45,548 nt of DNA. Origin: a candidate division WOR-3 bacterium (GTDB lineage Bacteria; Hydrothermota; Tepidihabitantia; Tepidihabitantales; Tepidihabitantaceae). The notes beneath the pieces were generated by a model. The model searched no databases and had not been told where the DNA came from. It saw only the letters and a list, made by a program, of their open reading frames with translations. The stretch lies in assembly GCA_016867815.1 (NCBI GenBank), contig VGIR01000014.1, positions 1-45,548 of the forward strand, read 5' to 3'. The translations under genes were made by a program, and so were the position numbers. The stretch's first letter is position 1. Each line of letters opens with the position of its first letter. Shown piece after piece: positions 4,825 to 45,310 of this stretch.

Positions 4825-4861
4825 GCGCGGGACGTCTGGCCAGAACTGGAGGCGGAGATCT

Positions 4862-4921
4862 ACCACCAAGACACAAAGACACCAAGACGTACGGACTTCG
4901 GACATCTGTGTAATCTGCGGA
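4862..4921. repeat. AAAGACAC-type repeat plus ATCTGTG element
   Basis: An ACC(A)AGACAC-rich tract at 4862-4888 (about 8-bp spacing) is followed at 4904-4921 by ATCTGTGTAATCTGCGG, with the half-repeat ATCTGTG/ATCTGCG. Related AAAGACAC tracts occur at 5291, 6437 (reversed) and 17094. The block lies upstream of two divergent genes. On the minus strand it would read as hydrophobic LCVLVV codons, which extends the permease frame without being needed. Confidence 0.6.
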
Positions 4922-4976
4922 ACTGCGGATGAAGTCGGCTGACATTGGCGTCCCTGGTGGCCGGATTCCGGGCGGC

Positions 4977-5004
4977 TTGCATGCCAGCCGGGTTAGGGTA
5001 TATT
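4977..5004 (+). promoter_or_regulatory. Promoter of the FmdE-like gene, leaderless type
   Basis: TTGCAT (4977-4982), 16-bp spacer, TATATT (4999-5004), then six bases to GTG 5011. No Shine-Dalgarno sequence is present. Confidence 0.55.
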
Positions 5005-5010
5005 GGGCGC

Positions 5011-5460
5011 GTGATTTCGGACAACGTGCTCAAGCAGGCGACGCGTTTTCATGGCCATCTCGGGCCGTGGCTGGTCCTGGGGCTGAAGGCCGGAACGTAC
5101 GCGCGGCGAAAACTGGCCGCCTCGCCGTTCGAGCTGAGGGCGCGGGTCTTCTGCCCGGCGGGCACACCCTACACTTGTTTCGTAGACGGAATCCAGTTCA
5201 GTTCGGGCTGCACCATGGGCAAGGGGAACATCAGCCATCATCGTGCCGCCGGGTGCCGGGTCGAGTTCACGCGGGCCGAAGACGGACTCCACCACAAAGA
5301 CACAAAGTCACAGGGAGGGTCGGAGCGCACGCTGCGACTGGCAGTGCGTCCCGAGGTCTGGGAGGAACTCCATTCTCGGCCGTGCAAGGGGATGGCAGGC
5401 GCGGCGCGGCTGGGGCGCGAGTTCGCCCGCCGTCGACTGGCGGAGCTTCTCACCGAGTGA
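5011..5460 (+). CDS. FmdE/FwdE-family protein
   Basis: A 149-residue protein resembling the formylmethanofuran dehydrogenase subunit E family: RFHGHLGPWLVLGLKAG near the N-terminus and FVDGIQFSSGCTMGKGN at about 58-74, which carry the conserved His and Cys of the family (metal binding). Family members outside methanogens often stand alone and their reaction is not settled. The GTG at 5011 is preferred because a promoter -10 box ends six bases before it; earlier in-frame starts at 4945 and 4981 would lie inside the promoter. Between about residues 94 and 104 (HHKDTKSQGGS) the gene carries an AAAGACAC-type repeat, an in-frame insertion between two strands of the fold. Confidence 0.75.
   Translation: MISDNVLKQATRFHGHLGPWLVLGLKAGTYARRKLAASPFELRARVFCPAGTPYTCFVDGIQFSSGCTMGKGNISHHRAAGCRVEFTRAEDGLHHKDTKSQGGSERTLRLAVRPEVWEELHSRPCKGMAGAARLGREFARRRLAELLTE
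5291..5315. repeat. AAAGACAC-type repeat inside the FmdE-like gene
   Basis: ACCACAAAGACACAAAG and further related bases, inserted in frame and read as HKDTKS. Same family as 4862-4888. Confidence 0.65.
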
Positions 5461-5511: not shown

Positions 5512-6315
5512 ATGCGCTGGTTGAAGAACCTGGTCCGGGAGTGGGCTCCGGTCATACTCGCCGTGTTGCTCATCCGTTCGTTCGTGGTCGAGGCTTTCAT
5601 GGTGCCGACCGGCTCGATGCTCAACACAATTTTCATCGGCGACATGATGCTCGTGAACAAGTTCGTCTATGGCGCGAAGCTGCCTTTCACCGACAAGACC
5701 GTCATCCCGGTCTCGAGCCCGAAGCGCGGCGAGATCGTGATCTTCCGCTTTCCGCTGGACCCGGACGTTCCCGAGGGCGCCAGTCGAATCTTCCCCGCCA
5801 AGCTCCCGCTCCTCCCCTTGTTCTGGAGCAAGACCAAGGGCTTCTTCCAGTGGTACACCCCGCTGGCGCTGATCAAGCGCTGCGTGGCCGTGGCCGGGGA
5901 TACGGTTGAGTACCGGGACAAGCAACTCTATGTGAACGGCAGGTTGCAGGTCGAGCCGTACGTGATCCACAGCGACGGACGGATGCTGCCCGGATTCGAA
6001 CCGGCGCCGAGCCAGGCCGAGTTCCAGAAGGCCTGGGAAGAGAAGCGGTTCTTTCGCACCGGGTACTCACCGTACGTGCGCGACCGGTTTGGCCCGATTG
6101 TGGTGCCGCCGGGGACGATCTTCGTGATGGGTGACAACCGCGACAACTCTGAGGACGCGCGGTTCTTCGGGCTGCTGGAGCTGCGCCACGTCCGCGGCAA
6201 GCCGCTGGTCACCTACATGTCAACGTCCGCGGCCGGGTATCCCATCAACATCCCGAAGATGGTGCTCTCGCCCTGGGCGATCCGGTTCAATCGCATCGGC
6301 CACTTGGTCCGCTAG
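5512..6315 (+). CDS. lepB: Signal peptidase I (first of a tandem pair)
   Basis: A 267-residue type I signal peptidase that cleaves signal peptides outside the inner membrane. One N-terminal membrane helix (about 13-31) leads into VPTGSM with the nucleophile Ser35; the general base is Lys122 in LIKRCVAVAGD; box E is MGDNRDNSEDARFFG near residue 205. All catalytic elements are present. It follows the FmdE-like gene by 51 bp and no clear promoter of its own was found. A close paralogue follows 251 bp downstream, so the pair arose by tandem duplication; the two differ in the loop between the Ser and Lys boxes, which may change substrate choice (inference). Confidence 0.95.
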   Translation: MRWLKNLVREWAPVILAVLLIRSFVVEAFMVPTGSMLNTIFIGDMMLVNKFVYGAKLPFTDKTVIPVSSPKRGEIVIFRFPLDPDVPEGASRIFPAKLPLLPLFWSKTKGFFQWYTPLALIKRCVAVAGDTVEYRDKQLYVNGRLQVEPYVIHSDGRMLPGFEPAPSQAEFQKAWEEKRFFRTGYSPYVRDRFGPIVVPPGTIFVMGDNRDNSEDARFFGLLELRHVRGKPLVTYMSTSAAGYPINIPKMVLSPWAIRFNRIGHLVR

Positions 6316-6537: not shown

Positions 6538-6570
6538 GTGCTGACAATTGACAAAGGTGCGCGCCTGTGA
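6538..6570 (+). CDS. Possible 10-residue leader peptide coupled to lepB
   Basis: GTG at 6538 opens MLTIDKGARL and stops at TGA 6568-6570, which overlaps the GTG start of lepB (GTGA). The start lies 8 bases after a good -10 box, as in the leaderless genes here. It may serve to deliver ribosomes to the lepB start. AAAGG at 6553-6557 could instead act as lepB's own ribosome site. Confidence 0.35.
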   Translation: MLTIDKGARL

Positions 6571-7382
6571 AGGGCGGCTGGGGCTGGCTGCGCAACGTGG
6601 GACGCGAATGGGCGCCGGTCATCATCGCCGTCCTGCTCATCCGTTCGTTCGTGGTCGAGGCCTTCATGGTGCCGACGGGCTCGATGCTCAAGACCATACT
6701 CATCGGCGACTTCATGCTCGTGAACAAGTTCGTCTACGGAGTAAAGCTGCCGTTCACCGACAGGACCGTCATACCGGTTTCGAACCCGAAGCGCGGTGAC
6801 ATCATTGTGTTCCGGTTCCCGGTCGACACCGAAGACCCGCAACCGGCGGCACGCTACACGAGGCTCTTTCCCCGCTGGCTGCCGCTGCTGCCGGTTTTCT
6901 GGGACAATCAGTCGCGTTTCTTCGCGTGGTACGTCCCACGCAACTTCATCAAGCGCTGCATCGCCGTTGCCGGCGACACGGTTGAGTACCGGGAGAAACA
7001 GCTCTATGTCAACGGCCGGCAGCAGAACGAGCCCTACGTGATGCACGCGGATTCGCGGATGCTGCCCGGGTTTGAGCCGGCTCCCGAGCGAGCCGAATTC
7101 CAGAAGGCCTGGGAGGGACGGCGGTTCTACCAGTCCGAATACTCGCCGTACGTGCGCGACCAGTTTGGTCCGGTAGTGGTCCCGGCCGGACACGTCTTCG
7201 CGATGGGCGACAACCGCGACAACTCCGAGGATGGCCGGTTCTGGGGACCGCTCGCCATCCGCAATCTGCGCGGGAAGCCGCTGGTGCTCTATTTCTCGTC
7301 CGACGCGGCACCGAACATTGCCCGGATCATCATCTCTCCCTGGGCCGTCCGTTTCAGCCGGATCGGCCGCATCGTCAGGTAG
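6567..7382 (+). CDS. lepB: Signal peptidase I (second of a tandem pair)
   Basis: A 271-residue type I signal peptidase, closely similar to its upstream neighbour over the whole length. Nucleophile Ser39 in VPTGSM, general base Lys129 in FIKRCIAVAGD, box E MGDNRDNSEDGRFWG. One N-terminal membrane helix and a short basic start. Compared with the first copy it has a longer segment before the Lys box (around residues 90-115). GTG 6567 overlaps the stop of a 10-codon frame. The gene downstream has its own promoter, so lepB2 is probably transcribed alone. Confidence 0.95.
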   Translation: MKGGWGWLRNVGREWAPVIIAVLLIRSFVVEAFMVPTGSMLKTILIGDFMLVNKFVYGVKLPFTDRTVIPVSNPKRGDIIVFRFPVDTEDPQPAARYTRLFPRWLPLLPVFWDNQSRFFAWYVPRNFIKRCIAVAGDTVEYREKQLYVNGRQQNEPYVMHADSRMLPGFEPAPERAEFQKAWEGRRFYQSEYSPYVRDQFGPVVVPAGHVFAMGDNRDNSEDGRFWGPLAIRNLRGKPLVLYFSSDAAPNIARIIISPWAVRFSRIGRIVR

Positions 7383-15120: not shown

Positions 15121-16115
<995 letters not shown>

Positions 16116-16119
<4 letters not shown>

Positions 16120-17060
16120 GTCCGGGCCCGAAGAAAACACCAAGCCCTACCGGTCGAACGACGAAGCGACCGGATAGTGCTGGTCGTTCGCGCATTCGGC
16201 AGATAGAGATCCGCACGCGACGGCTGGTCAACACCCTGTTCTCGGGCGACTACAAGTCATCGTTCAAGGGCCGGGGCATCGAATTCCTCGACGTGCGCGA
16301 GTACCTGCCCGGCGATGACGTGCGCACGATTGACTGGAAGGTGACGGCGAGGTTCGGGCGACCTTACGTGAAGAAGTATGCTGAGGAGCGCGAGCTGGTC
16401 GTTATCCTGTTGGTGGACGCATCCGGCTCGGATCGGTTCGGCACCAAGCGGCTGTTCAAGCTCGAGCAGGCGGCGCAGGTCGCGGCCACGCTCGCATTCT
16501 CCGCCATCCGCAACAACGACAAGGTCGGGCTGGTATTCTTCACCGACCACATCGAAAAGTACGTGCCGCCGAAAAAGGGCCGGGTCCACGTGCTCCGGCT
16601 GATTCGCGATATCCTCTACTTCGAACCGGAGCACCGCGGCACGGACGCGGGGCAGGCGCTCGAGTTCCTGATGCACGTCCTGAAACGCCGGGCGATTATC
16701 TTTCTCATCTCCGACCTCATGGGCGACTCATACCGACCGGAGGTGATTCGTCAGCCGCTGGGTATCGTTGCGCGCAAGCACGACCTTGTCGTAGTCTCCG
16801 TGAGCGACCCGGCGGAGAAGGAGCTGCCTCGACTGGGCCTCGTCGAGATGGAGGACGCCGAGACCGGGGAACTCGCGACCGTGGACACTTCCGATCCGGT
16901 CCTGCGGAAGCGTTTTGCGGCATCCCAGTCCGCGCGGCAGGAGGCAACGGAGAGGCTGCTACGGCAAATCGGTGTCGACCACATCCCGGTTTCCACCGCG
17001 GAGGACTTCTCCAAGAAGCTCCACCAGTTCTTCCAGAAGCGCGCACGGAGATACAGGTAG
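16116..17060 (+). CDS. DUF58 protein with VWA-like fold
   Basis: A 314-residue cytosolic protein of the DUF58 family, the standard partner of MoxR. The family signature is GIEFLDVREYLPGDDVRTIDW (about 50-70), followed by a VWA-like core with an intact MIDAS start VDASGSDRF and later LISDLMGD. The GTG start overlaps the moxR stop by four bases (GTGA), indicating coupling. It probably binds MoxR and relays its action to the Bat membrane proteins. Confidence 0.9.
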
Positions 17061-17071
17061 AAGAAATCAGA

Positions 17072-18184
17072 ATGCGTAGACGGAATCGGAGTTCCACCAC
17101 CGATACACACAGGCACAGAGTCCAGGCCGGGTTCTGGGCTCTCGGTGTCCTGGTGTCTTTGTGGGCAATTCCTGGGACGATTATTGCGCAGCCCGCCCCT
17201 GACTCAGGGGTAGCGTCGGACACGATCGTACGCGACACCGGGCCTGCGTACCGTATCGTCTCCGGCGGGCCGGTGTCGGTGAGCGCGAAGCTGTTGCCAA
17301 GGCCCAAGCGGGACCTAACCGTGGGTGATCAGTTCAAGCTGGAGCTGACGGTCAGGCACCACCGCAGCGCGAAGGTCGGAGAGCCTTTCGCTCCGAGCCT
17401 CGATCCGTTCATGATTCTTGACCGGAAGAGCATCACCCGCTATGCCGGCGACACGATGGTCGACATCCACATGCTGACGATGGCAGCGTTCGCAACCGGC
17501 GAACCGAAGGTGCCGCCATTCATCGTACCTTACCCGGCAGAAGGCGAGATACGCGCTGCCGCCTCGGAGTCGATACCGGTGAAGATCGCAAGCGTGATGC
17601 CCAAGGACATGAAGGACATTAACGACTTGAAGCCCCAGATACAGTTTCCGAACTTCCTGCCAATATGGATCATACTCGGGATTCTCGCCGCGGCAGGGCT
17701 GGGCTATCTCGGCTGGCGGCTCTATCGCCGCTATCGCCGGATAAGGCTCTATGGAGCACCGCTGCCCGACCCGTGGGACGAGGCACTGGCGGCACTCGAC
17801 CGTGTGCCGGCCGAGGACTGGCTTGCGTCAGGCCACTTCAAGCGCTACTACTACACGGTATCGGAGGTTCTCAAGCGCTACCTGACCCGCCGTTTCGGAT
17901 TCCCGGCCCTCGACCAGACGACCACCGAAATTACTCGGGCGATGAAGGCCGCAAAGACCCCGGAGCGTGAAGGCTTCGGCGAGTTCTTCCGGCGGGCAGA
18001 CATGGTGAAGTACGCTAAGTTCGTGCCGCCAGCGGCTGAGGCAGCCGCAGTGGTTTCCACCGCGCGGGAACTCGTGAGGGCGACGACGCCGAAGCCAGAA
18101 GCAGGCACTGGGGTCCAAGCGGCCAGGGGTTCAGGGGTTCAGGCCGGAACCCCGGAACCCCCGAACCCCGGAACCCATCTATGA
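17072..18184 (+). CDS. Bat-operon membrane protein (BatD/DUF4381-like)
   Basis: A 370-residue protein: signal peptide, extracytoplasmic beta domain (about 60-185, SAKLLPRPKRDLTVGDQFKLE as in BatD-type proteins), one membrane helix (about 193-215), and a cytosolic part with YYYTVSEVLKRYLTRRFG (about 257-274), as in proteins encoded between DUF58 and batA elsewhere. Two repeats shape it. The signal-peptide core LGVLVSLW (24-31) is encoded by an AAAGACAC-type repeat, and the last 25 or so residues (GVQAARGSGVQAGTPEPPNP) by an 8-bp array. The stop overlaps batA's start (ATGA). No strong ribosome site precedes ATG 17072, so the exact start is less certain. Confidence 0.8.
   Translation: MRRRNRSSTTDTHRHRVQAGFWALGVLVSLWAIPGTIIAQPAPDSGVASDTIVRDTGPAYRIVSGGPVSVSAKLLPRPKRDLTVGDQFKLELTVRHHRSAKVGEPFAPSLDPFMILDRKSITRYAGDTMVDIHMLTMAAFATGEPKVPPFIVPYPAEGEIRAAASESIPVKIASVMPKDMKDINDLKPQIQFPNFLPIWIILGILAAAGLGYLGWRLYRRYRRIRLYGAPLPDPWDEALAALDRVPAEDWLASGHFKRYYYTVSEVLKRYLTRRFGFPALDQTTTEITRAMKAAKTPEREGFGEFFRRADMVKYAKFVPPAAEAAAVVSTARELVRATTPKPEAGTGVQAARGSGVQAGTPEPPNPGTHL
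17094..17165. repeat. AAAGACAC-type repeat, two arms in opposite orientation
   Basis: Left part 17094-17119 is CACCACCGATACACACAGG-like; right part 17139-17165 (GGTGTCCTGGTGTCTTTGTGG) is the reverse orientation of the same family. Together they form an imperfect inverted repeat within the signal-peptide codons of the gene at 17072. Confidence 0.6.
18125..18176. repeat. Octamer array with inverted halves (GGGGTTC/GAACCCC)
   Basis: Two AGGGGTTC units (18125-18140) are followed after six bases by GAACCCC-type units (18147-18176). The halves form a hairpin of 15-bp arms with one mismatch. It encodes the C-terminal tail of the upstream protein and ends at the batA start. Confidence 0.75.
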
Positions 18185-19158
18185 GATTCGCCCACCCCTG
18201 GTTCTTTCTCCTGCTGGCCTTGGTACCAGCGTACGTCTGGTGGCAGATAGTGAAGCGCCGGGCCGCGGTTGTGTACAGCGACCTTTCATTCCTGCGCGGA
18301 GCGAGTGCCCGCGGGCGCTACGGGAGGATAGTGGTCCATGCCCTGTACGCGCTGGCCATGACATTCATGATCGTTGCCTTGGCGCGGCCCCAGCGTGGTC
18401 GTCAATTCCAGGAGGTCGAAACCCGGGGCATCGACATCATGATGTGTCTCGATATCTCCGGCTCGATGCAGGCCGAAGACTTTTCCCCGAAGAACCGGTT
18501 GAACGTCGCCAAAGAGCGGGCCAAGGAGTTCATCGACAGGCGGAAGGGTGACCGCATCGGCCTGGTGATCTTCTCCGCCGCGAGCCTGACTCAGTGTCCG
18601 CTGACGATGGACCGACAGATAATCAACGGCCTCATTGACCGGCTCGACTTCGGCATGCTCGAAGACGGGACTGCGGTCGGCCTCGGTCTGGCCAGTGCAG
18701 TCGCCCGACTCAAAGACTCAAAAGCAAAGGACCGCGTCATCGTCCTGCTCACCGACGGCGTGAACAACACCGGCGACATCGACCCGATAACCGCTGCCCA
18801 GACCGCGGCGAGCTTCGGCATCAAGGTCTACACCATCGGCGTAGGCAGCAAAGGGCTGGTGCCCTACCCGGTGAACGACCGGATGTTCGGCCGCCGCTAC
18901 GTGCAGGTGCAAATAGACCTTGACACCGAGACCCTGCAGAAGATCGCGGACATGACCGGCGGCAAGAGCTTCCTCGCGACCGACGCGCAGGCGCTCGGGC
19001 AGATCTACGATGAGATTGACCGGATGGAGCCGACCACGTTCAAGGTCAAGCAGTACACCGTCTACAACGAGCTGGCCGGGCTCTGGTTGTTGCTGTCGGT
19101 GATCGCGATGGGGGCCGGCGCGGCGCTGGCAACCACCTTGTTCAGGAGATTGCCATGA
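18181..19158 (+). CDS. batA: VWA-domain membrane protein BatA
   Basis: A 325-residue membrane protein. Two N-terminal helices (about 5-22 and 58-78), a VWA domain exposed outside the membrane with an intact MIDAS (DISGSM, Asp91-Met96; later LLTDGVNNTGD), and a C-terminal helix (about 300-320). Bat proteins form a membrane complex linked to oxygen or stress tolerance and cell-envelope integrity in Bacteroides and Leptospira. ATG overlaps the previous stop (ATGA), and the end overlaps batB. Confidence 0.9.
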   Translation: MRFAHPWFFLLLALVPAYVWWQIVKRRAAVVYSDLSFLRGASARGRYGRIVVHALYALAMTFMIVALARPQRGRQFQEVETRGIDIMMCLDISGSMQAEDFSPKNRLNVAKERAKEFIDRRKGDRIGLVIFSAASLTQCPLTMDRQIINGLIDRLDFGMLEDGTAVGLGLASAVARLKDSKAKDRVIVLLTDGVNNTGDIDPITAAQTAASFGIKVYTIGVGSKGLVPYPVNDRMFGRRYVQVQIDLDTETLQKIADMTGGKSFLATDAQALGQIYDEIDRMEPTTFKVKQYTVYNELAGLWLLLSVIAMGAGAALATTLFRRLP

Positions 19159-20231
19159 TCAAGTGGGCAGAGCCGATCTACCTATGGTTGCTGCTCGTCG
19201 TACCAGTCGGGCTGGCGTTGATGATGTTCCGCGGACTGAACCGACGGCGCGCCCTATCACGGGCGATTGACCCGGAACTGATAGACCGGCTTACGCCTTC
19301 CCTCTCCGCGGGCCTGACCACGCTAAAAGGGCTGCTCCTGCTTGGCGCGCTCGCGTTCCTGCTGCTGGCCGCGGCCCGGCCCAAATGGGGTGAGAAGCTC
19401 CAGATGTACAAGGGAAAGGGGATCGACGTTGTCATTGCCCTGGACGCCTCGAAGTCGATGCTGGCCGAGGACGTGAAACCCTCGCGACTCGTCCGGGCCA
19501 AGACCGAACTCGCCTCCCTGCTTGACGGCCTGGCCGGCAATGCGATCGGCATCGTTGCCTTCGCCGGCGAAGCCTACGTGATGTGCCCGCTGACCGCCGA
19601 CGCGGACGCGGCCAAGCTCTTTCTCGACATCATCGGCCCGGACATGATGCCGGTACCCGGGACTGACTTCAGCAAGGCGATTGACGTAGCGCTTTCGCTC
19701 TTCAGCCCCAAGGAAATGAACTACAAGGCGCTGGTGCTGGTGACTGACGGAGAGGACCTGAGTAGGAGCACGGCGCAGGCAATTCAGCGCGCGGCTGACG
19801 CGCACGTGCGCGTTTTCCCGGTTGCCTTTGCCACCACCGAGGGTTCACCGATACCTGATTACGACGCGCAGGGTAACCTGAGTTCCTACAAGAAGGACAA
19901 AGACGGGCAGGTGGTGATGTCCCGGATGGACGAGCGCGAGCTGATTGTGATGGCGCAGGCGACCGGCGGCAGGTTCATGCGGGTCGAGGGATTCTCCGGC
20001 GAGCGCCTGCTGGGCGAACTGGACAGGATGCGCAAGAAGGACATCGGCAGCGGCCAGTACACCGATTACGTTGAGCGGTACCAGTTGTTCCTCGTCGTCG
20101 CGCTGGCGCTCTTCCTGGCCGGATTGGGGATGAGCAACCGCAAAGGAGCTTGGTTCATAGTCAGACGAAGGCAGAAGTCAGAAGCCAGAAGTCAGAATGC
20201 AGAACTCGAGATGCAAAATGAAGCAGCATAG
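19155..20231 (+). CDS. batB: VWA-domain membrane protein BatB
   Basis: A 358-residue paralogue of BatA with the same plan: two N-terminal helices, VWA domain with MIDAS DASKSM (Asp97-Met102; Ser at the middle position replaced by Lys relative to DxSxS is tolerated as D-A-S-K-S), VTDGEDLS, and a C-terminal helix around 312-330. The last 20 or so residues (RQKSEARSQNAELEMQNEAA) are encoded by a heptamer array, beyond the point where the protein would normally end. This extension makes batB overlap the start of batC. Confidence 0.9.
   Translation: MIKWAEPIYLWLLLVVPVGLALMMFRGLNRRRALSRAIDPELIDRLTPSLSAGLTTLKGLLLLGALAFLLLAAARPKWGEKLQMYKGKGIDVVIALDASKSMLAEDVKPSRLVRAKTELASLLDGLAGNAIGIVAFAGEAYVMCPLTADADAAKLFLDIIGPDMMPVPGTDFSKAIDVALSLFSPKEMNYKALVLVTDGEDLSRSTAQAIQRAADAHVRVFPVAFATTEGSPIPDYDAQGNLSSYKKDKDGQVVMSRMDERELIVMAQATGGRFMRVEGFSGERLLGELDRMRKKDIGSGQYTDYVERYQLFLVVALALFLAGLGMSNRKGAWFIVRRRQKSEARSQNAELEMQNEAA
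20171..20205. repeat. Heptamer micro-array (TCAGAAG type)
   Basis: Five exact-phase units: GCAGAAG, TCAGAAG and three variants with core CAGAA. It forms the tail of batB, and the first possible batC start (20197) lies within it. Confidence 0.85.
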
Positions 20232-20856
20232 GCCTCGGCTCCTTGTCGTCGGCACATTGTCCTTGGCACTTGCCGCGCATGCGGCTGATGTCGGCGGCCT
20301 GATGCGGCAGGGAAACGGGCTGTACGCTCGCGGAAAGTACGATGAGGCGCTTTCTCGGTACCAGATGGCGGAGGTGCTCGAACCGGACGCAACCGCGATT
20401 CACTTCAACCTCGGCAATGCGCTGTTCCGGCTCGGCCGCTACGAGGAGGCGGCGCGCGAGTTGGAGCTGGTGATGATCGACAAGAAACCAGCACGTCGGG
20501 CCAACGCGATGTATAATATCGGCAACGTGGCTTTCAAAGCAGGCCAACTCGATCCCGCAATCAAGGCGTTTGCCGGCGCGCTCGTCATCAACCCAAATGA
20601 CAAGCAGGCTAAGCAGAACCTCGAGTTCTGCCTGAAGAAGAAGCAGGAACAGCAGAGTCAGCCGGATAGCTCGAAGCAGAACCAGCAGCAACAGCAGCAA
20701 CAACAGCAACGACAGCAACAACAGCCCCAACCTCAGCAGGGCATGGACAAGAGCCAAGCCGAGCGTATCGTCCAGGCGGTCGAGGACAAAGAGAAGGAAG
20801 AGCAGAAGAAACAGCGCCAGGCCGGCGGGAAGAGACAGGTGGAGCAAGACTGGTGA
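20218..20856 (+). CDS. batC: TPR protein BatC
   Basis: A 212-residue periplasmic protein: signal peptide MKQHRPRLLVVGTLSLALAAHA, then three TPR motifs (about 30-135; ARGKYDEALSRYQMAEVLEP, LGRYEEAARELE, AGQLDPAIKAFAGALVI) and a low-complexity Gln-rich tail (about 145-175) ending in charged residues. The tail with many Gln is typical of BatC. ATG 20218 is preferred over ATG 20197 because the signal peptide starts there and the earlier codons come from a repeat array; it overlaps the batB stop by 14 bases. Confidence 0.85.
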   Translation: MKQHRPRLLVVGTLSLALAAHAADVGGLMRQGNGLYARGKYDEALSRYQMAEVLEPDATAIHFNLGNALFRLGRYEEAARELELVMIDKKPARRANAMYNIGNVAFKAGQLDPAIKAFAGALVINPNDKQAKQNLEFCLKKKQEQQSQPDSSKQNQQQQQQQQQRQQQQPQPQQGMDKSQAERIVQAVEDKEKEEQKKQRQAGGKRQVEQDW

Positions 20857-22619
20857 CCCGACGCCTGCTGGTGCTATTGGTCTTCTGCGTGCCGCTTCTC
20901 AGCGCGGCTGAGTTGAGCCTCTCGGCAGACGTCGACCGAACCACAGTCGGCCTGGGTGAGCAGTTTCAGCTCACGGTCACGGTCGAGGGTACGAACATCG
21001 GCGGTGCGCCCCGGCCGCAGGTACCGTCGATGGATGAGTTTGATGTCCTAGGCAGCACCTCGTCCCAATCCACGAGCATCTCGTTCATCAACGGCCGGAT
21101 GACCCAGCAGAACACCATCAGCTTCATCTACTTTCTTTCTCCGAAGCGTATCGGCAACCTGACTGTCCCGCCCTTCAAACTCTCCTTCAAGGGCACTGTC
21201 TACGAGACTCAACCCATCGCCATAGCAGTTACCAAAGAGAGCCAGTCTCCGCTCCCAAACCGGCAGCAGCAACAGCAGTCCCCGTTTGGTCTTCCCGCTC
21301 GTCCCCAGACCCGAAGTTCAGGTCGGGGCAGCGTGCTTCTCACCGCGTCGGCCGACAGGACGTCTGTGTATCAGGGCGAGCAGGTGACGGTCGCCTTTGT
21401 GCTGTACACCCAGGCCCAGGTTGCCGATCTCGGCATCAAAGCCATGCCCGGCTTCACCGGCTGCTGGGCCGAGAAGCTCTTCGATGCCAAGGAATTGAAT
21501 TGGCGCAATGCGACCTACGGTGGGCAGAGGTACAGCGCCGCGACCGTGAAGCAGGTCGCACTCTTTCCTACGCAGTCAGGCGAGGTGAAGATCCACAAGA
21601 TGACGGTTTCCGGACAGATCATAGTAGGCGGCGGATTCTTCTTCGATTCGGCTGAGCCTTTTGAGGCGTCGTCGGACCCAATCACCATAAGCGTCAAACC
21701 CCTGCCCGAAGCCGGCAAGCCGCAGGACTTCGGCGGCGGCGTCGGCGATTTTGAGGTCACGGCCGCTCTCAGCGGAGACAGCTCGGTTGGCGGCGAGCCG
21801 CTCACCCTGACGGTCAAGGTCGTCGGCACCGGCAACATCGGTCTCGTGGGCGAGCCGAAGCTCACGCCGATTTCAGGTGTCAAGGTACTCAGCCCGGAAA
21901 CAAAGCAGACCACGCGCACTGCCGACGGCCGGGTCGCAGGAGAACGTACGTTCAGCTACCCGCTGATTCCGACCGCGGACGGGAAGTTCGTGATTCCCGA
22001 AATCACGACGGGTTTCTTCGACCCGAAGGTCGGCGCCTACTATACGCAGACAACCCCGCGCCTTGAGTTCGTGGCGAGCGGCGCGACCGGCAAGACGCCT
22101 TTGCCGGAAAGCGAGTCTGGCGTCAAGACGCTGGGTGCTGACATCCTCCATATCAAATCGTCCTACAGACAGTCGTCGCCTTCCCTGAGCTTGCTAGGAT
22201 GGTTCTTCTACCCGGCAGGCCTTATCGTTCTCGGGACTGGCGTCTGGATGGGCCGTCACCGCCGCAGGCTCGAACAGGATCGCGGCTATGCGCGACGCAG
22301 CCGCTCCAGCCGGCTGGTCAAGAAGGGTCTGGCCGAGGCCACGAAGCTGCTCGCGCAGGGGAACGAACGCGAATTCCATACCGCGCTCAACCGGGCAGTC
22401 GTGCGCTACGTCGGTGACCGCTACAACATGGAGTCCACCGGGATGACCGGTGACCAGCTCCAAGCGGAACTCGCCCGCCGGAACGTGGACCCGGCAACCG
22501 TCGCAAGCTTGCTTGACTTGATTGCCTCCTGCGACGCAGCCCGGTTCTCACCGGGAATGACTCGGTGCTCGCCGCAGGAGACGCTGGAGAAGGCGCGGAT
22601 AGTGCTGGAGAAGCTTTGA
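20853..22619 (+). CDS. batD: Oxygen-tolerance protein BatD
   Basis: A 588-residue protein: signal peptide (LLVLLVFCVPLLSA), several extracytoplasmic Ig-like/beta domains (ADVDRTTVGLGEQFQLTVTVE at 25-45; a second ADRTSVYQGEQVTVAFVLYT at about 165; a third after residue 300), a membrane helix (about 447-465) and a basic cytosolic tail with an all-helical domain to the end. This is the standard BatD layout. GTG overlaps batC's stop by four bases. A Gln run (RQQQQQS) near 138 links domains 1 and 2. Confidence 0.9.
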   Translation: MTRRLLVLLVFCVPLLSAAELSLSADVDRTTVGLGEQFQLTVTVEGTNIGGAPRPQVPSMDEFDVLGSTSSQSTSISFINGRMTQQNTISFIYFLSPKRIGNLTVPPFKLSFKGTVYETQPIAIAVTKESQSPLPNRQQQQQSPFGLPARPQTRSSGRGSVLLTASADRTSVYQGEQVTVAFVLYTQAQVADLGIKAMPGFTGCWAEKLFDAKELNWRNATYGGQRYSAATVKQVALFPTQSGEVKIHKMTVSGQIIVGGGFFFDSAEPFEASSDPITISVKPLPEAGKPQDFGGGVGDFEVTAALSGDSSVGGEPLTLTVKVVGTGNIGLVGEPKLTPISGVKVLSPETKQTTRTADGRVAGERTFSYPLIPTADGKFVIPEITTGFFDPKVGAYYTQTTPRLEFVASGATGKTPLPESESGVKTLGADILHIKSSYRQSSPSLSLLGWFFYPAGLIVLGTGVWMGRHRRRLEQDRGYARRSRSSRLVKKGLAEATKLLAQGNEREFHTALNRAVVRYVGDRYNMESTGMTGDQLQAELARRNVDPATVASLLDLIASCDAARFSPGMTRCSPQETLEKARIVLEKL

Positions 22620-23395
22620 GAAGGAAAGTGGTCAAGTGGCCAAGTAGTCCAGTGGCCAGGTGCCTGGGTATTCTTGCCCTTGCGTCCTGCATCTTGCAGG
22701 GTGCAGTCGCTTCCCCGGCTGACCTTTTCAGCCGCGGAAATCAGGCCTATGAATCCGGTGACTATGCCGTCGCCGTCACGTTGTACGACAGCGCGGCAGC
22801 GGGAGTGTCTAGCGCGGAGCTGTTCTACAATCGGGGTAACGCCAGGTTCAAACTCGGAGAAGTCGGGCGGGCCATCGCCGACTACAACCGTGCGTATGTG
22901 CTCAAACCGCACGACAAGGACATCAGTCACAACCTCGCCTTTGCCCGTCAGTACCGGCCCGACAAGTCCTTGACCCTCGAGAATCCGCTCTTGCGGATGC
23001 TGACCGGCCTTCTACGCCTGCTCGACGCGGCGACTGCACGCGTACTGTCCGGCCTCTTCTTCTTCCTTGCCCTTGCTGCGCTCGCCCTGCTCTTGATTCG
23101 CGGCCAGCGCCTGTTCGGCTGGACTGCTATCGGGCTCAGCGTCCTCTTTCTCTACTGCTTCATCTCCGCCACAAGCTGGGGCGCGGTTACGAACCCGGCG
23201 CACGCGGTCGTGGTCCAGCCAGAGCTCACCCTGCGCAGCGGCCCGGGTCCGGAATACAAGGAGATCGCCGTTGTCCACGACGGGCTCGAGGTGATGCTGC
23301 GCGAGCGGCGACCCGGGTATGTCCTCATCCAGATTCCGGGCGGTGACGGCGGATGGGTTGAATCCGCCTCGGTCGAACTGGTCTTCGCCCGCTAG
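22616..23395 (+). CDS. batE: TPR/SH3 protein BatE
   Basis: About 259 residues: signal peptide, two TPRs (about 35-105; RGNQAYESGDYAVAVTLYD, YNRGNARFKLGEVGRAIADYN), two membrane helices (about 145-185) and a C-terminal SH3b domain (VQPELTLRSGPGPEYKEIAVV) ending in DGGWVESASVELV. This is the usual BatE plan and the last gene of the operon. TTG 22616 is the likely start, overlapping the batD stop, with GGAG just upstream. The first codons (VVKWPSSPVARCLG) come from an octamer array, so the original start may have been lost or replaced. Confidence 0.85.
   Translation: MRRKVVKWPSSPVARCLGILALASCILQGAVASPADLFSRGNQAYESGDYAVAVTLYDSAAAGVSSAELFYNRGNARFKLGEVGRAIADYNRAYVLKPHDKDISHNLAFARQYRPDKSLTLENPLLRMLTGLLRLLDAATARVLSGLFFFLALAALALLLIRGQRLFGWTAIGLSVLFLYCFISATSWGAVTNPAHAVVVQPELTLRSGPGPEYKEIAVVHDGLEVMLRERRPGYVLIQIPGGDGGWVESASVELVFAR
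22626..22665. repeat. Octamer micro-array (AAGTGGCC type)
   Basis: Five 8-bp units with core AGTGG (AAGTGGTC, AAGTGGCC and variants) at the batD/batE junction. It is read in frame as the N-terminus of BatE. Confidence 0.8.
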
Positions 23396-36263: not shown

Positions 36264-37644
36264 GGTGATGCGTGCCCTGTTCGTCCTGTTTGTCCTGACT
36301 GCCGGTTCGGCAAGCGCCGGCTGGGATCCCACCGTCCGCCTGACCACGAGCGACAGCGCGACTCACAACTCGATGACTCCTGCCCGGAGCATCGCGGCCG
36401 GCCCGCCCGGCTGCATTCACGTCGTCTTCTACGACCATCGTACTGACAAAGACCAGATATACTACAAGCGTTCCGAAGATTCCGGCGCGACTTGGTCTGC
36501 CGACACAATGCTATCGAACGGCGTCGGGTTCAAGGCTGAGCCCGCGGTTGCGGCCTCAGGCGGATGTGTCCATGCCGTCTGGGAGGACCGGGACAGTGGT
36601 GTCTACAACGCAGGGGTCAGCTACCGGCGCTCGACCGACGCGGGCCTGACCTGGCTGGCGGAGACGCTGCTCGCCTCGGAGGCGTACAACTGCCGGAACC
36701 CGTCGGTCTCGGCGCAGGATTCCTTTGTCCATGTCGCCTGGGCCGACGACAGCGCCGGCCGCGAGCTCTACTATCGGCGCTCGACCGACTACGGCGCTAC
36801 CTGGAGCGACAAAGTCAGGCTTACCAACGACATCCAGGAGTCGTGGCACCCTTCGCTCGCGCTGCACGACAGCTTCGTGCACCTGGCGTGGCGCGACTGG
36901 CGCGACCACTCGTTTGAGGTCTACTACAAGCGCTCAGCTGACTACGGGGTGACGTGGGGCAGTGATGAGAGGCTGTCCGGCGACCTGGCGAACGGCTCGT
37001 ACAACCCCTGCATCGCCGCCGATTCCGGCCTCGTCCACGTGGTCTGGTCGGATACGCGGCACATGCCGTTCGAGATCTACTGCAGGAGTTCGACCGACGA
37101 GGGAGCGACGTGGGACGACGAAATCCGTCTGTCCGATGACACGACCGGCTCTTACAACACGACGGTCACGGCCCGCGGCGCGACCGTGCACCTGATGTGG
37201 GAGGCGCTGTATGGCACGTCGTTCATCATGTACAAGTCCTCGACGGACGGCGGAAAGACGTGGTCAGCCGACACCGCGCTAACGGTGACGCCGGACTACT
37301 GGTCAGTCTCGCCCTGCGCGGCAATGGACGGAAGCGACGTGCATCTTGTCTGGACCGACTTCCGCGACTCCGAATACGGCGAGATCTACTACAAGCGGAA
37401 GCCCGCCGGTGGCGCAGGAATCGATGAAGGCCGCAAGCCGCAGGCCTCAAGCCGCAAGCTGGGGGCAACGATTCTGCTCGGAGCGTCTAGCGTAGAGCGT
37501 CTTGCGTCAAGCGTCGTCTTCGACGCGATGGGCAGGCGGGTGCTGAACCCGCGGTCAGGGGTCTACTTCGTACGTTCCGCTTCCGGCGTGATGCGTAGTG
37601 CGTCAGGCATAGAGCGTATGTCCAAGGTCGTTGTGACGAGGTAG
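36256..37644 (+). CDS. Secreted BNR/Asp-box protein with C-terminal sorting-like domain
   Basis: A 462-residue secreted protein: signal peptide (MRALFVLFVLTAGSASA, if counted from the internal ATG), a sialidase-type propeller with six Asp-boxes of form S-x-D-x-G-x-T-W (STDAGLTW, STDYGATW, STDEGATW and others), and a C-terminal domain VVFDAMGRRVLN...SGVYFVR...KVVVTR of the type IX secretion-signal style. No sialidase catalytic residues are evident. The TTG at 36256, eight bases after GGAGG, overlaps the previous gene. Three heptamer arrays lie in the linker and C-terminal domain. Second gene of the YkgJ operon. Confidence 0.85.
   Translation: MSEVMRALFVLFVLTAGSASAGWDPTVRLTTSDSATHNSMTPARSIAAGPPGCIHVVFYDHRTDKDQIYYKRSEDSGATWSADTMLSNGVGFKAEPAVAASGGCVHAVWEDRDSGVYNAGVSYRRSTDAGLTWLAETLLASEAYNCRNPSVSAQDSFVHVAWADDSAGRELYYRRSTDYGATWSDKVRLTNDIQESWHPSLALHDSFVHLAWRDWRDHSFEVYYKRSADYGVTWGSDERLSGDLANGSYNPCIAADSGLVHVVWSDTRHMPFEIYCRSSTDEGATWDDEIRLSDDTTGSYNTTVTARGATVHLMWEALYGTSFIMYKSSTDGGKTWSADTALTVTPDYWSVSPCAAMDGSDVHLVWTDFRDSEYGEIYYKRKPAGGAGIDEGRKPQASSRKLGATILLGASSVERLASSVVFDAMGRRVLNPRSGVYFVRSASGVMRSASGIERMSKVVVTR
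37430..37464. repeat. Heptamer micro-array (GCCGCAA type)
   Basis: Five units, GCCGCAA, GCCGCAG and variants, read as EGRKPQASSRKLG between the propeller and the C-terminal domain. Confidence 0.85.
37483..37517. repeat. Heptamer micro-array (GCGTNNN type), first in this gene
   Basis: Five in-phase units with GCGT followed by three variable bases (CTA, AGA, CTT, CAA, CGT). Read as ASSVERLASSV just before the FDAMGRRV strand. Confidence 0.9.
37586..37620. repeat. Heptamer micro-array (GCGTNNN type), second in this gene
   Basis: Five units with GCGT/GCAT and three variable bases, read as SGVMRSASGIERM between GVYFVR and the last strand KVVVTR. Confidence 0.9.
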
Positions 37645-43802: not shown

Positions 43803-45310
43803 GCGCCACTCTGCTTCTTCTGCTTTCTGTCATCACGTCACGTGGCTTCGGGCCGAACGTGCGCATAGACCACCAGTTCCTGCCAAATCACGGTTGCCAC
43901 TGGTGCGAGATTACCATTGGCCCGGGCGCGCCTTCGAGTCAACCGCTATACGTCGTGTTCGAGGATGACTCGACGAGGGGCCCCACGATTATTCGCACTG
44001 ACATCATGTTCCAGAAATCCACCGATGCCGGCAGGACTTGGCTGCCCACCGATGTGTTGATACGACGCGGTGCCCCCTGCGGAGAGAGCCCAGACATCAC
44101 GACCGACTCGGACGGCAACGTCTATATCGTGTATGAAAACGTGTATCGCGACACTGCCGGCGCGTACGACCATCAGGTTCTGTGCACGCGCTCGAGTGAC
44201 GGCGGCGCCACATGGTCTTCGCCGGCCAGGATTGACGATGATTCTGTCAGATATGTCGGCATGACTAGCATTGCCGCGGATTCGGCCGGCGACCTCTTCT
44301 GCGCCTGGACCGACTGGCGGACGGGGTATAGCCACATCTGGTCGTCGGTTTCAACCGATCGGGGAGTGACGTGGAGCCGGAACGTACGGGTGGATGATGA
44401 CACGACCGACTATGACTGTGCCCACGCAGAGGTCTTTGTCCAACCGGGAACGAACCACTACCTCGTGGCTGCGCAAGTCCCGCGCGAGTTCGAGGAGGTT
44501 CCATACGTCAGAATGTGCGCTTTTCTGTATCGCTCGACCGACCGCGGCCTGACCTTCGGGCCCGGGGTCCAGCTCGACACGTTCAACAGGTACGCAGGAC
44601 ATCCCCATGTCGTCGCTGACCGGGACCACATCATCTGCGATTACTTCGGGAATGGCCGGGAAGTCCGTGACACGATTATCGCCGAGGCCCGCACATTCTA
44701 CACGCAGGCCGATTCCTGGGGCAGTCCCGTAGCGGTTACTAATCTCGACTTTCTTCATGAATTGTACTACAGCGGAACACTTGCCATCTCCGGCGACGGC
44801 CGCGTTCACACCGCGCTGATGGTCTCCGACACAGCACATGGCTACAACATATGTTACGCGTCTTCGTCGAACCACGGCGTCACCTGGTCCAACCTCGAGG
44901 TCGTCAACGACGATACAGCCAGACTCGGACGCTGGTACCCGGAGATCGTCGCCGACTCGGCCGGGCACGTCTACGTGGTCTGGACGGCCGACGGTAAGAT
45001 CTGGTTCTCGACCAACAGCCCTCTGCCTGGCATCGCCGCGGAAATGTCTAACGCCGAACTGCGGGCGGCGAACAACAGCCCGACCGTCGTCCGCAACGTC
45101 CTGTTCCTGCCGAAAATGGGGACTGTACCTTCAGGGACTGTACCCATTTCCGGGCCTTGGCTAATCGACATCGGCGGTCGGAAGGTGATGGACCTGCAGC
45201 CGGGCGAGAATGACGTGCGGGCGCTGGCCCCGGGCGTCTACTTCATGCGTCAGGCGTCCAGCGTGGAGCATCAAGCGTCGAACGTCAGCAAGGTTGTCGT
45301 CACGCGATAG
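43799..45310 (+). CDS. Secreted BNR/Asp-box protein with C-terminal sorting-like domain
   Basis: A 503-residue secreted protein: signal peptide MSATLLLLLSVITSRG, a sialidase-type propeller with Asp-boxes (STDAGRTW, SSDGGATW, STDRGVTW, SSNHGVTW), and the C-terminal domain LIDIGGRKVMDLQPGENDV, APGVYFMR, KVVVTR. It is a paralogue of the gene at 36256. Sialidase catalytic residues are not evident. Strong ribosome site GAGGAGG before ATG. It carries a GGGACTGT element (MGTVPSGTVPISG) and a GCGTNNN array (ASSVEHQASNV) in the C-terminal domain. Confidence 0.85.
   Translation: MSATLLLLLSVITSRGFGPNVRIDHQFLPNHGCHWCEITIGPGAPSSQPLYVVFEDDSTRGPTIIRTDIMFQKSTDAGRTWLPTDVLIRRGAPCGESPDITTDSDGNVYIVYENVYRDTAGAYDHQVLCTRSSDGGATWSSPARIDDDSVRYVGMTSIAADSAGDLFCAWTDWRTGYSHIWSSVSTDRGVTWSRNVRVDDDTTDYDCAHAEVFVQPGTNHYLVAAQVPREFEEVPYVRMCAFLYRSTDRGLTFGPGVQLDTFNRYAGHPHVVADRDHIICDYFGNGREVRDTIIAEARTFYTQADSWGSPVAVTNLDFLHELYYSGTLAISGDGRVHTALMVSDTAHGYNICYASSSNHGVTWSNLEVVNDDTARLGRWYPEIVADSAGHVYVVWTADGKIWFSTNSPLPGIAAEMSNAELRAANNSPTVVRNVLFLPKMGTVPSGTVPISGPWLIDIGGRKVMDLQPGENDVRALAPGVYFMRQASSVEHQASNVSKVVVTR
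45118..45145. repeat. GGGACTGT element in the sorting-like domain
   Basis: GGGGACTGTACC (45118-45129) and GGGACTGTACCC (45134-45145), four bases apart, inserted before the DIGGRKV strand. Confidence 0.75.
45247..45288. repeat. Heptamer micro-array (GCGTNNN type)
   Basis: Six units with GCGT, GCAT or ACGT and three variable bases, at the same place (between GVYFMR and KVVVTR) as the array at 37586-37620. Confidence 0.9.

Follow-up and report, generated by a model that had tools for sequence, protein, structure and literature searches.

The palindromic repeat RU-2 of Yersinia is described as contributing a part of the signal peptide predicted for YPO1552, and the relatives of YPO1552 in other genera are described as having unrelated signal peptides (Delihas 2007; PMC2759123, PMC2229807). 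The palindromic elements of Rickettsia are described as Rickettsia-specific repeats of 105-146 bp that lie in frame in conserved protein genes (Ogata et al. 2000; PMC2229807). Intergenic heptamers, such as TAACTGA, are reported from Beggiatoaceae, Cyanobacteria and Bacteroidetes as head-to-tail direct repeats upstream of starts (PMC4679880), and REP elements are reported as high-copy extragenic palindromes of 20-40 bp with GTAG/CGTC-tagged ends (PMC3733652). The locus analysed here lies in a 45,548-nucleotide stretch of DNA from a candidate division WOR-3 bacterium (contig VGIR01000014.1; the window). As far as these accounts describe them, it shares features with all of these systems. Like RU-2 in YPO1552, it contains a dispersed hairpin repeat in a predicted signal peptide, while relatives of the gene have unrelated ones. 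Like the Rickettsia elements, a repeat lies in frame inside a conserved protein gene, here that of an FmdE-like protein. Like the TAACTGA heptamers, 7-nt units occur near start codons and are scattered across distant phyla, and like REP elements the palindromes are extragenic and of high copy number. A hairpin repeat that forms part of a predicted signal peptide is of a kind already known from Delihas (2007).

The hairpin element at the start of the 17072 gene

The gene at 17072-18184 (plus strand) encodes a DUF4381-like membrane protein, the Pfam match of which (23.4 bits) is below the curated cutoff of 27.2 bits. It is located in a Bat-type operon on the plus strand, in the order of a MoxR-type AAA ATPase gene (15121-16119), a DUF58 gene (16116-17060), the 17072 gene, two VWA genes (18181-20231) with a BatA N-terminus on the first, a TPR gene (20218-20856), a BatD gene (20853-22619) and a BatE-like TPR/SH3 gene (22628-23395); the ATPase, DUF58 and VWA genes are assigned with Pfam. 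The ATG at 17072 follows the stop of the DUF58 gene after a gap of 11 bases. The C-terminal tail of the 17072 gene (18100-18184) is made from another inverted repeat with GGGGTTC/GAACCCC units and encodes GVQAARGSGVQAGTPEPPNPGTHL; this tail alone matches other places in three genomes of the genus (G003, G004 and G005). CAGAAGT-type heptamers at 20150-20235 extend across the junction of the second VWA gene with the TPR gene, such that the C-terminus of the former product and the N-terminus of the latter are partly repeat-encoded.

A covariance model, R1, was built from 12 other copies of the octamer repeat, with the copy in the window and its orthologue in the congener G002 both left out. When the whole window is searched, the best match of R1 is at 17088-17173, with E=2.4e-8 on the minus strand and 1.5e-7 on the plus strand. 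This element is in frame at the 5' end of the 17072 gene and matches R1 over its full length of 1-96, with both arms and the centre matching copies elsewhere. It is a decayed full-length hairpin element with the octamer unit CACAAAGA: the z score of its DNA fold is -2.3, as compared with -5.2 for the G002 orthologue, which R1 scores at E 6.4e-16. The first 40 residues of the gene product are MRRRNRSSTTDTHRHRVQAGFWALGVLVSLWAIPGTIIAQ. The A-rich 5' arm, ACCACCGATACACACAGGCACAGAG (17096-17120, plus strand), encodes TTDTHRHR, which forms a polar and basic n-region; its first part, 17096-17116, corresponds to residues 9-15 (TTDTHRH). The T-rich 3' arm, CTCGGTGTCCTGGTGTCTTTGTGGG (17141-17165, plus strand), encodes the hydrophobic core, LGVLVSLW, with 17141-17164 corresponding to residues 24-31. 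The match of R1 and this reading arm by arm confirm the claim of an earlier note, made from the letters of the window, that a repeat at 17094-17165 encodes the core of a signal peptide.

Signal peptides in this study are predicted from a hydropathy rule. By rules of this kind the n-region has a net charge of +5 before the core, and Sec-type features are present, namely a core of 2.4 and a cleavage-like motif. The core in the genome of the window (G000) is only at the 9th percentile of hydropathy among signal peptide-like genes. These results support the view that the predicted signal peptide takes its n- and h-regions from the element.

The octamer family and the polarity of its palindromes

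Imperfect 8-nt units in succession make up the arm pattern, ACCAC-NAAG-RCAC-NAAG-RCAC-NAAG. The 25-nt arm is found at 50 places in the genome when up to three mismatches are allowed, and its reversed control at none. The exact 17-nt form is found at 77 places in this genome, and is present in 27 of the 147 genomes of the phylum and in all six of the genus. The arms are often in facing pairs, and the 12 paired copies from which R1 was built give a consensus with the ends GGAnTCT...AGAnTCC and a TCGGAnTCCG-like centre. Each genome of the genus has 16 to 81 strand-wise matches to R1 among the up to 150 candidates scored in it. A 25-nt form of the pattern is present in at least 114 stretches, with named genomes from Chloroflexi, Planctomycetes, Cyanobacteria, Alphaproteobacteria, Acidobacteria, Bacteroidota, Verrucomicrobia, WOR-3 and others. 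A search of the window against Rfam gives no match to a known structured RNA at the gathering score.

Other copies in the window differ in completeness. The earlier note named 4862, 5291 and 6437. The first belongs to a fuller element at 4854-4969 (R1 E=7.2e-4), between an EamA gene on the minus strand and an FmdE gene; the second is a single arm (5291-5307, plus strand); and the third is weak (R1 E 7.9). The reading LCVLVV at 4862 is correct, but it is unlikely to be a signal peptide, because it precedes the first membrane helix of the EamA transporter itself. The arm at 5291 is in frame in a loop of the FmdE-like protein (4993-5460), inside conserved coding sequence, and is scored by R1 at only E 4.1, yet it has no mismatch to the 17-nt arm pattern. 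This arm is common to G000, G001 and G003, is replaced by a different repeat in G002, and has no counterpart in G005. The earlier note suggested a mobile or amplifying repeat; its copies are dispersed, and this site is occupied in some relatives but not in others. The spacer with the weak copy lies between tandem signal peptidase I genes (Peptidase_S26; 5512-6315 and 6567-7382). Elsewhere in the window, runs of GCGTCNA heptamers (37483-37612 and 45247-45280) encode linkers or tails near the C-termini of a BNR-repeat protein and a similar protein. A gene with what we take to be a topoisomerase-I-like start (L096, L111) has a long repeat-made N-terminal extension in G003 and G002. G003 is candidate division WOR-3 bacterium UBA2258, and locus L202 is identical within its contig C109.

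Strong hairpins (score of at least 16) number 45, as compared with none in block-shuffled DNA. Their left arm contains more A than T in 36 cases and more T than A in 9. At a score of at least 12, the left arms of 150 intergenic hairpins are split 97 to 43, with 10 ties; this set is diluted, because shuffled DNA gives 72 hairpins against 202 in all. Since the repeat is inverted, the polarity, A-rich first and T-rich second, is the same on both strands. The 5' arm of the consensus octamer is translated into TTKTQRHK, PQRHKDTK and HKDTKTQ, and the 3' arm into LCVFVSLW, FVSLCLCG and LCLCVFV, all without stops. The mean hydropathy in all frames is -2.6 to -3.1 for the 5' arm and +2.3 to +3.4 for the 3' arm. 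Codons with U at the second position specify hydrophobic residues, and U is abundant at this position in the 3' arm. The families do not all behave alike: stops are present in the 3' arm of the consensus AGTGGTCA and CAGAAGT units, and the GTTAGCA unit has stops in all frames unless its units vary.

Repeats at gene starts in the genus and their possible origin

The 17072 gene is matched in 30 of the 61 genomes searched and in five of the six genomes of the genus (G000 to G005). A repeat is present at its start in all five congeneric genomes with the gene, and these repeats belong to three families. In G002 the start holds a fresh copy of the octamer element, and in G003 and G004 an inverted repeat of GCATCTT-type heptamers; that of G005 consists of a CCGAG-type inverted repeat and, after it, a hydrophobic stretch which is only partly repeat-encoded. 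The congener starts fold better than their own shuffles (z -2.3 to -5.2); the z score of one start from another genus is -0.2. In ten genomes of other genera the N-termini, inspected by eye, are hydrophobic, unlike in sequence and have non-repeat cores. An octamer array in G008 and, by eye, other repeats in G006 and G012 lie beside the core, not in it. Thus, the orthologues without a repeat have unrelated signal peptides, and none was found that has the same signal peptide without repeat similarity. The proposal in the earlier note that such a repeat is a route to new exported proteins is not supported here: the gene looks exported in the ten genomes of other genera, and therefore the sequences indicate that the repeats replaced existing signal peptides.

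In a tree made from the operon bodies (3102 columns, signal peptide regions left out), G002 is grouped with G003 (99) and G004 with G005 (100). The AU test rejects the groupings of G000 with G002 (p-AU 0.0008) and of G003 with G004 (p 2e-5). The repeat family at the start of the 17072 gene is discordant with this tree, and at least three changes are needed. Recombination between lineages could be an alternative source of the discordance. G003 and G004 have similar hairpin centres, and their repeats may share an origin.

Other genes have similar starts. The core of the BatE-like gene is encoded by heptamers (22681-22706), of the TTTGCAG type in G000, G002 and G003 and of another unit in G004, and is preceded by an octamer array at 22626-22669 (fold z -4.1). 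The core of the TPR gene is encoded by TTTGTCC heptamers, which are decayed in the window and recognisable in congeners, and that of BatD by GTCCTATCG nonamers in congeners. A dispersed family of these nonamers is not supported (3, 6 and 5 places, against 3, 2 and 7 for the reversed control), and the TTTGGGA unit is not enriched in the three genomes sampled. A GTTAGCA/TGCTAAC hairpin encodes the whole predicted signal peptide of TolB (assigned by the Pfam family TolB_N), MGVSRLAVSKLAVGLLTANCLLLTANFVLAQ, in G000 and, in a slightly altered form, in G003; TolB in G001, G002, G004 and G005 lacks this hairpin-encoded signal peptide. In a HEAT-repeat lipoprotein of G000, the reading across an octamer arm is ATPWCLGVLVVNLLLSAC. 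The pattern thus appears to be shared by several repeat families and several genes, and to be wider than the earlier note claimed. An apparently orthologous gene start with a shared ATDxWRVF (G000 C4:10060, G002 C81:198674, G003 C8:45472) has a different repeat family in each genome, which is the same turnover as at the 17072 signal peptide. In an Acidobacteria MAG (L212:6705-7727), an octamer arm reads SSCLRVFVV and heads a signal peptide-like N-terminus of a protein without a Pfam family. Across phyla, this is the only one of 39 open-frame candidates, drawn from 261 T-rich arms among the 114 loci examined, that is convincing by eye.

We consider it probable that a palindromic octamer repeat entered the start of the 17072 gene and is now read as a replacement signal peptide, the hydrophobicity of which is selected, and that other families have done likewise. 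This reading builds on the family membership, position and reading of the repeat, its presence or absence in relatives and its turnover, all of which are observed; from these we infer translation from 17072, export, the insertion event and selection. A palindrome of imperfect 8-nt units would insert at an operon gene junction or into the 5' end of the second gene, and the inserted copy would be read as the front of the protein, with the A-rich 5' arm as the n-region and the T-rich 3' arm as the h-region. Because its polarity is the same on both strands, it lacks stops and it is read as polar and then hydrophobic, the octamer could replace a signal peptide in any orientation or frame. Selection would then keep the hydrophobicity as the hairpin decays, and other families in the genus, of heptamers and octamers, would act alike at this and other genes, with turnover.

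It is improbable, but the best of the alternatives, that the element is a spacer with a mis-called start behind it, such that the real start is downstream and the hydrophobic reading is incidental. This would fit the location of most octamer arms. Among 147 arms from stretches of three genomes, located with our own gene caller after removal of duplicates and of arms less than 20 nt from a stretch end, 114 are intergenic and 18 lie in the open 5' part of a gene, with 6 more at a 3' end and 9 inside a gene. It would also fit the start of codon-usage evidence only at about 17219, and the presence of 5'-end repeats in genes without an export signal. In a sample of 929 genes called in 1.24 Mb of three genomes, and counting genes that are long enough and clear of stretch ends, the hydropathy rule classes 246 as signal peptide-like and 625 as having no such N-terminus. 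Within the first 40 codons, 11 of the 246 and 26 of the 625 reach a lag-7 self-similarity of at least 10, as compared with 2 and 8 respectively further downstream; the control lags 4, 5, 10 and 11 give 0 to 4 of the 246. Repeats are concentrated at gene starts in general, and a targeting of exported genes is rejected by the similar counts at the two kinds of gene start. Where a 5' repeat is present, it is A-rich in 27 of 33 genes that are not signal peptide-like; for the 12 that are, the strongest repeat is as often T-rich as A-rich (6 each). A mis-called start is opposed by the lack of another hydrophobic N-terminus downstream, whereas the ten genomes of other genera keep one at that point, and by the frames of G000 and G002, which are aligned through the repeat and the whole signal peptide region without an indel. 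In addition, a mis-called start would deprive TolB, a periplasmic protein, of its signal in G000 and G003.

Somewhat less probable still is that the repeat is a tolerated passenger that destroyed or weakened the original signal, so that the protein is uncleaved, poorly exported or dispensable. The low percentile of the G000 core and the decay of the hairpin would fit this, as would the weak constraint on the signal peptide region. Between G000 and G002, this region (42 codons) has 10, 10 and 15 differences at the first, second and third codon positions, and 17 of its codons are nonsynonymous. However, the mature part is clearly constrained, with 93 third-position differences against 22 and 14 at the first and second positions of 260 body codons, and cleavage-like motifs remain. 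In the core (21 codons) the differences are 7, 2 and 7, so that the second position is the most conserved; the numbers are small, but the core appears to preserve the position at which hydrophobicity is set.

Replacement by a repeat is also consistent with the periodicity of the cores. Periodicity of 7 or 8 nt overlaps the hydrophobic core in 9, 6 and 4 of the 246 genes at scores of 9, 10 and 13. Synonymous recoding brings the means down to 0.6, 0.3 and 0.05, and at a score of 10 it gives a maximum of 1 in 60 runs against the 6 observed. Lags 13/14 give 9, 7 and 4 of 246, as expected because 14 is twice 7. A scan for intact hairpins (stem of at least 12) finds 3 of the 246 starts, two of which are the 17072 gene in G002 and G003; it is too strict for a general test, because decayed copies and single arms are missed. 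Chance convergence, in which the DNA of any hydrophobic core is T-rich, of low complexity and hence repeat-like, would account for moderate lag scores in some signal peptide genes without an evident repeat (the TPR gene of G011, lag 8, score 8), but is very unlikely, as R1 matches both arms across 86 nt at E 2.4e-8, complementary 5' arms are present, and neither synonymous recoding nor the lags 4, 5, 10 and 11 reproduce the signal.

Comparison with known systems

Signal peptides evolve fast, and the sources of new ones are rarely seen. Here, one gene can be seen in closely related species with different repeat families as its predicted signal peptide, and a simple rule of composition would explain their use in any frame and any orientation. 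We tentatively suggest, as a possibility with rather less than an even chance, that A-rich/T-rich inverted repeats are frame- and orientation-independent signal peptide cassettes, a standing pool that partly drives turnover across bacteria. If this is true, exported proteins in repeat-rich genomes repeatedly gain new signal peptides from repeats. How often repeats donate export signals becomes widely testable, since the pattern spans many phyla.

The arm sequence itself has no match in the open-access literature searched. In that literature, which included few subscription papers, no description was found either of a recurrence with different families at a single gene, of the additional genes or of the polarity rule for palindromes. 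The known systems, as described in the papers cited above, differ from this one as follows. RU-2 is one family of 168 bp and mainly concerns one gene, whereas here a short octamer element and several unrelated heptamer and octamer families concern several genes, and, unlike RU-2, different families replace each other at one site within a genus. Unlike the Rickettsia palindromic elements, the element is 86 bp long, is made of 8-nt units and has a pattern found in many phyla. Unlike the TAACTGA direct repeats, its imperfect units are arranged in inverted arms and are read as protein. Unlike REP elements, its 12-copy consensus is about 95 nt long, with neither a GTAG nor a CGTC tag. The ends of this consensus, GGAnTCT...AGAnTCC around the arms, are MITE-like terminal inverted repeats.
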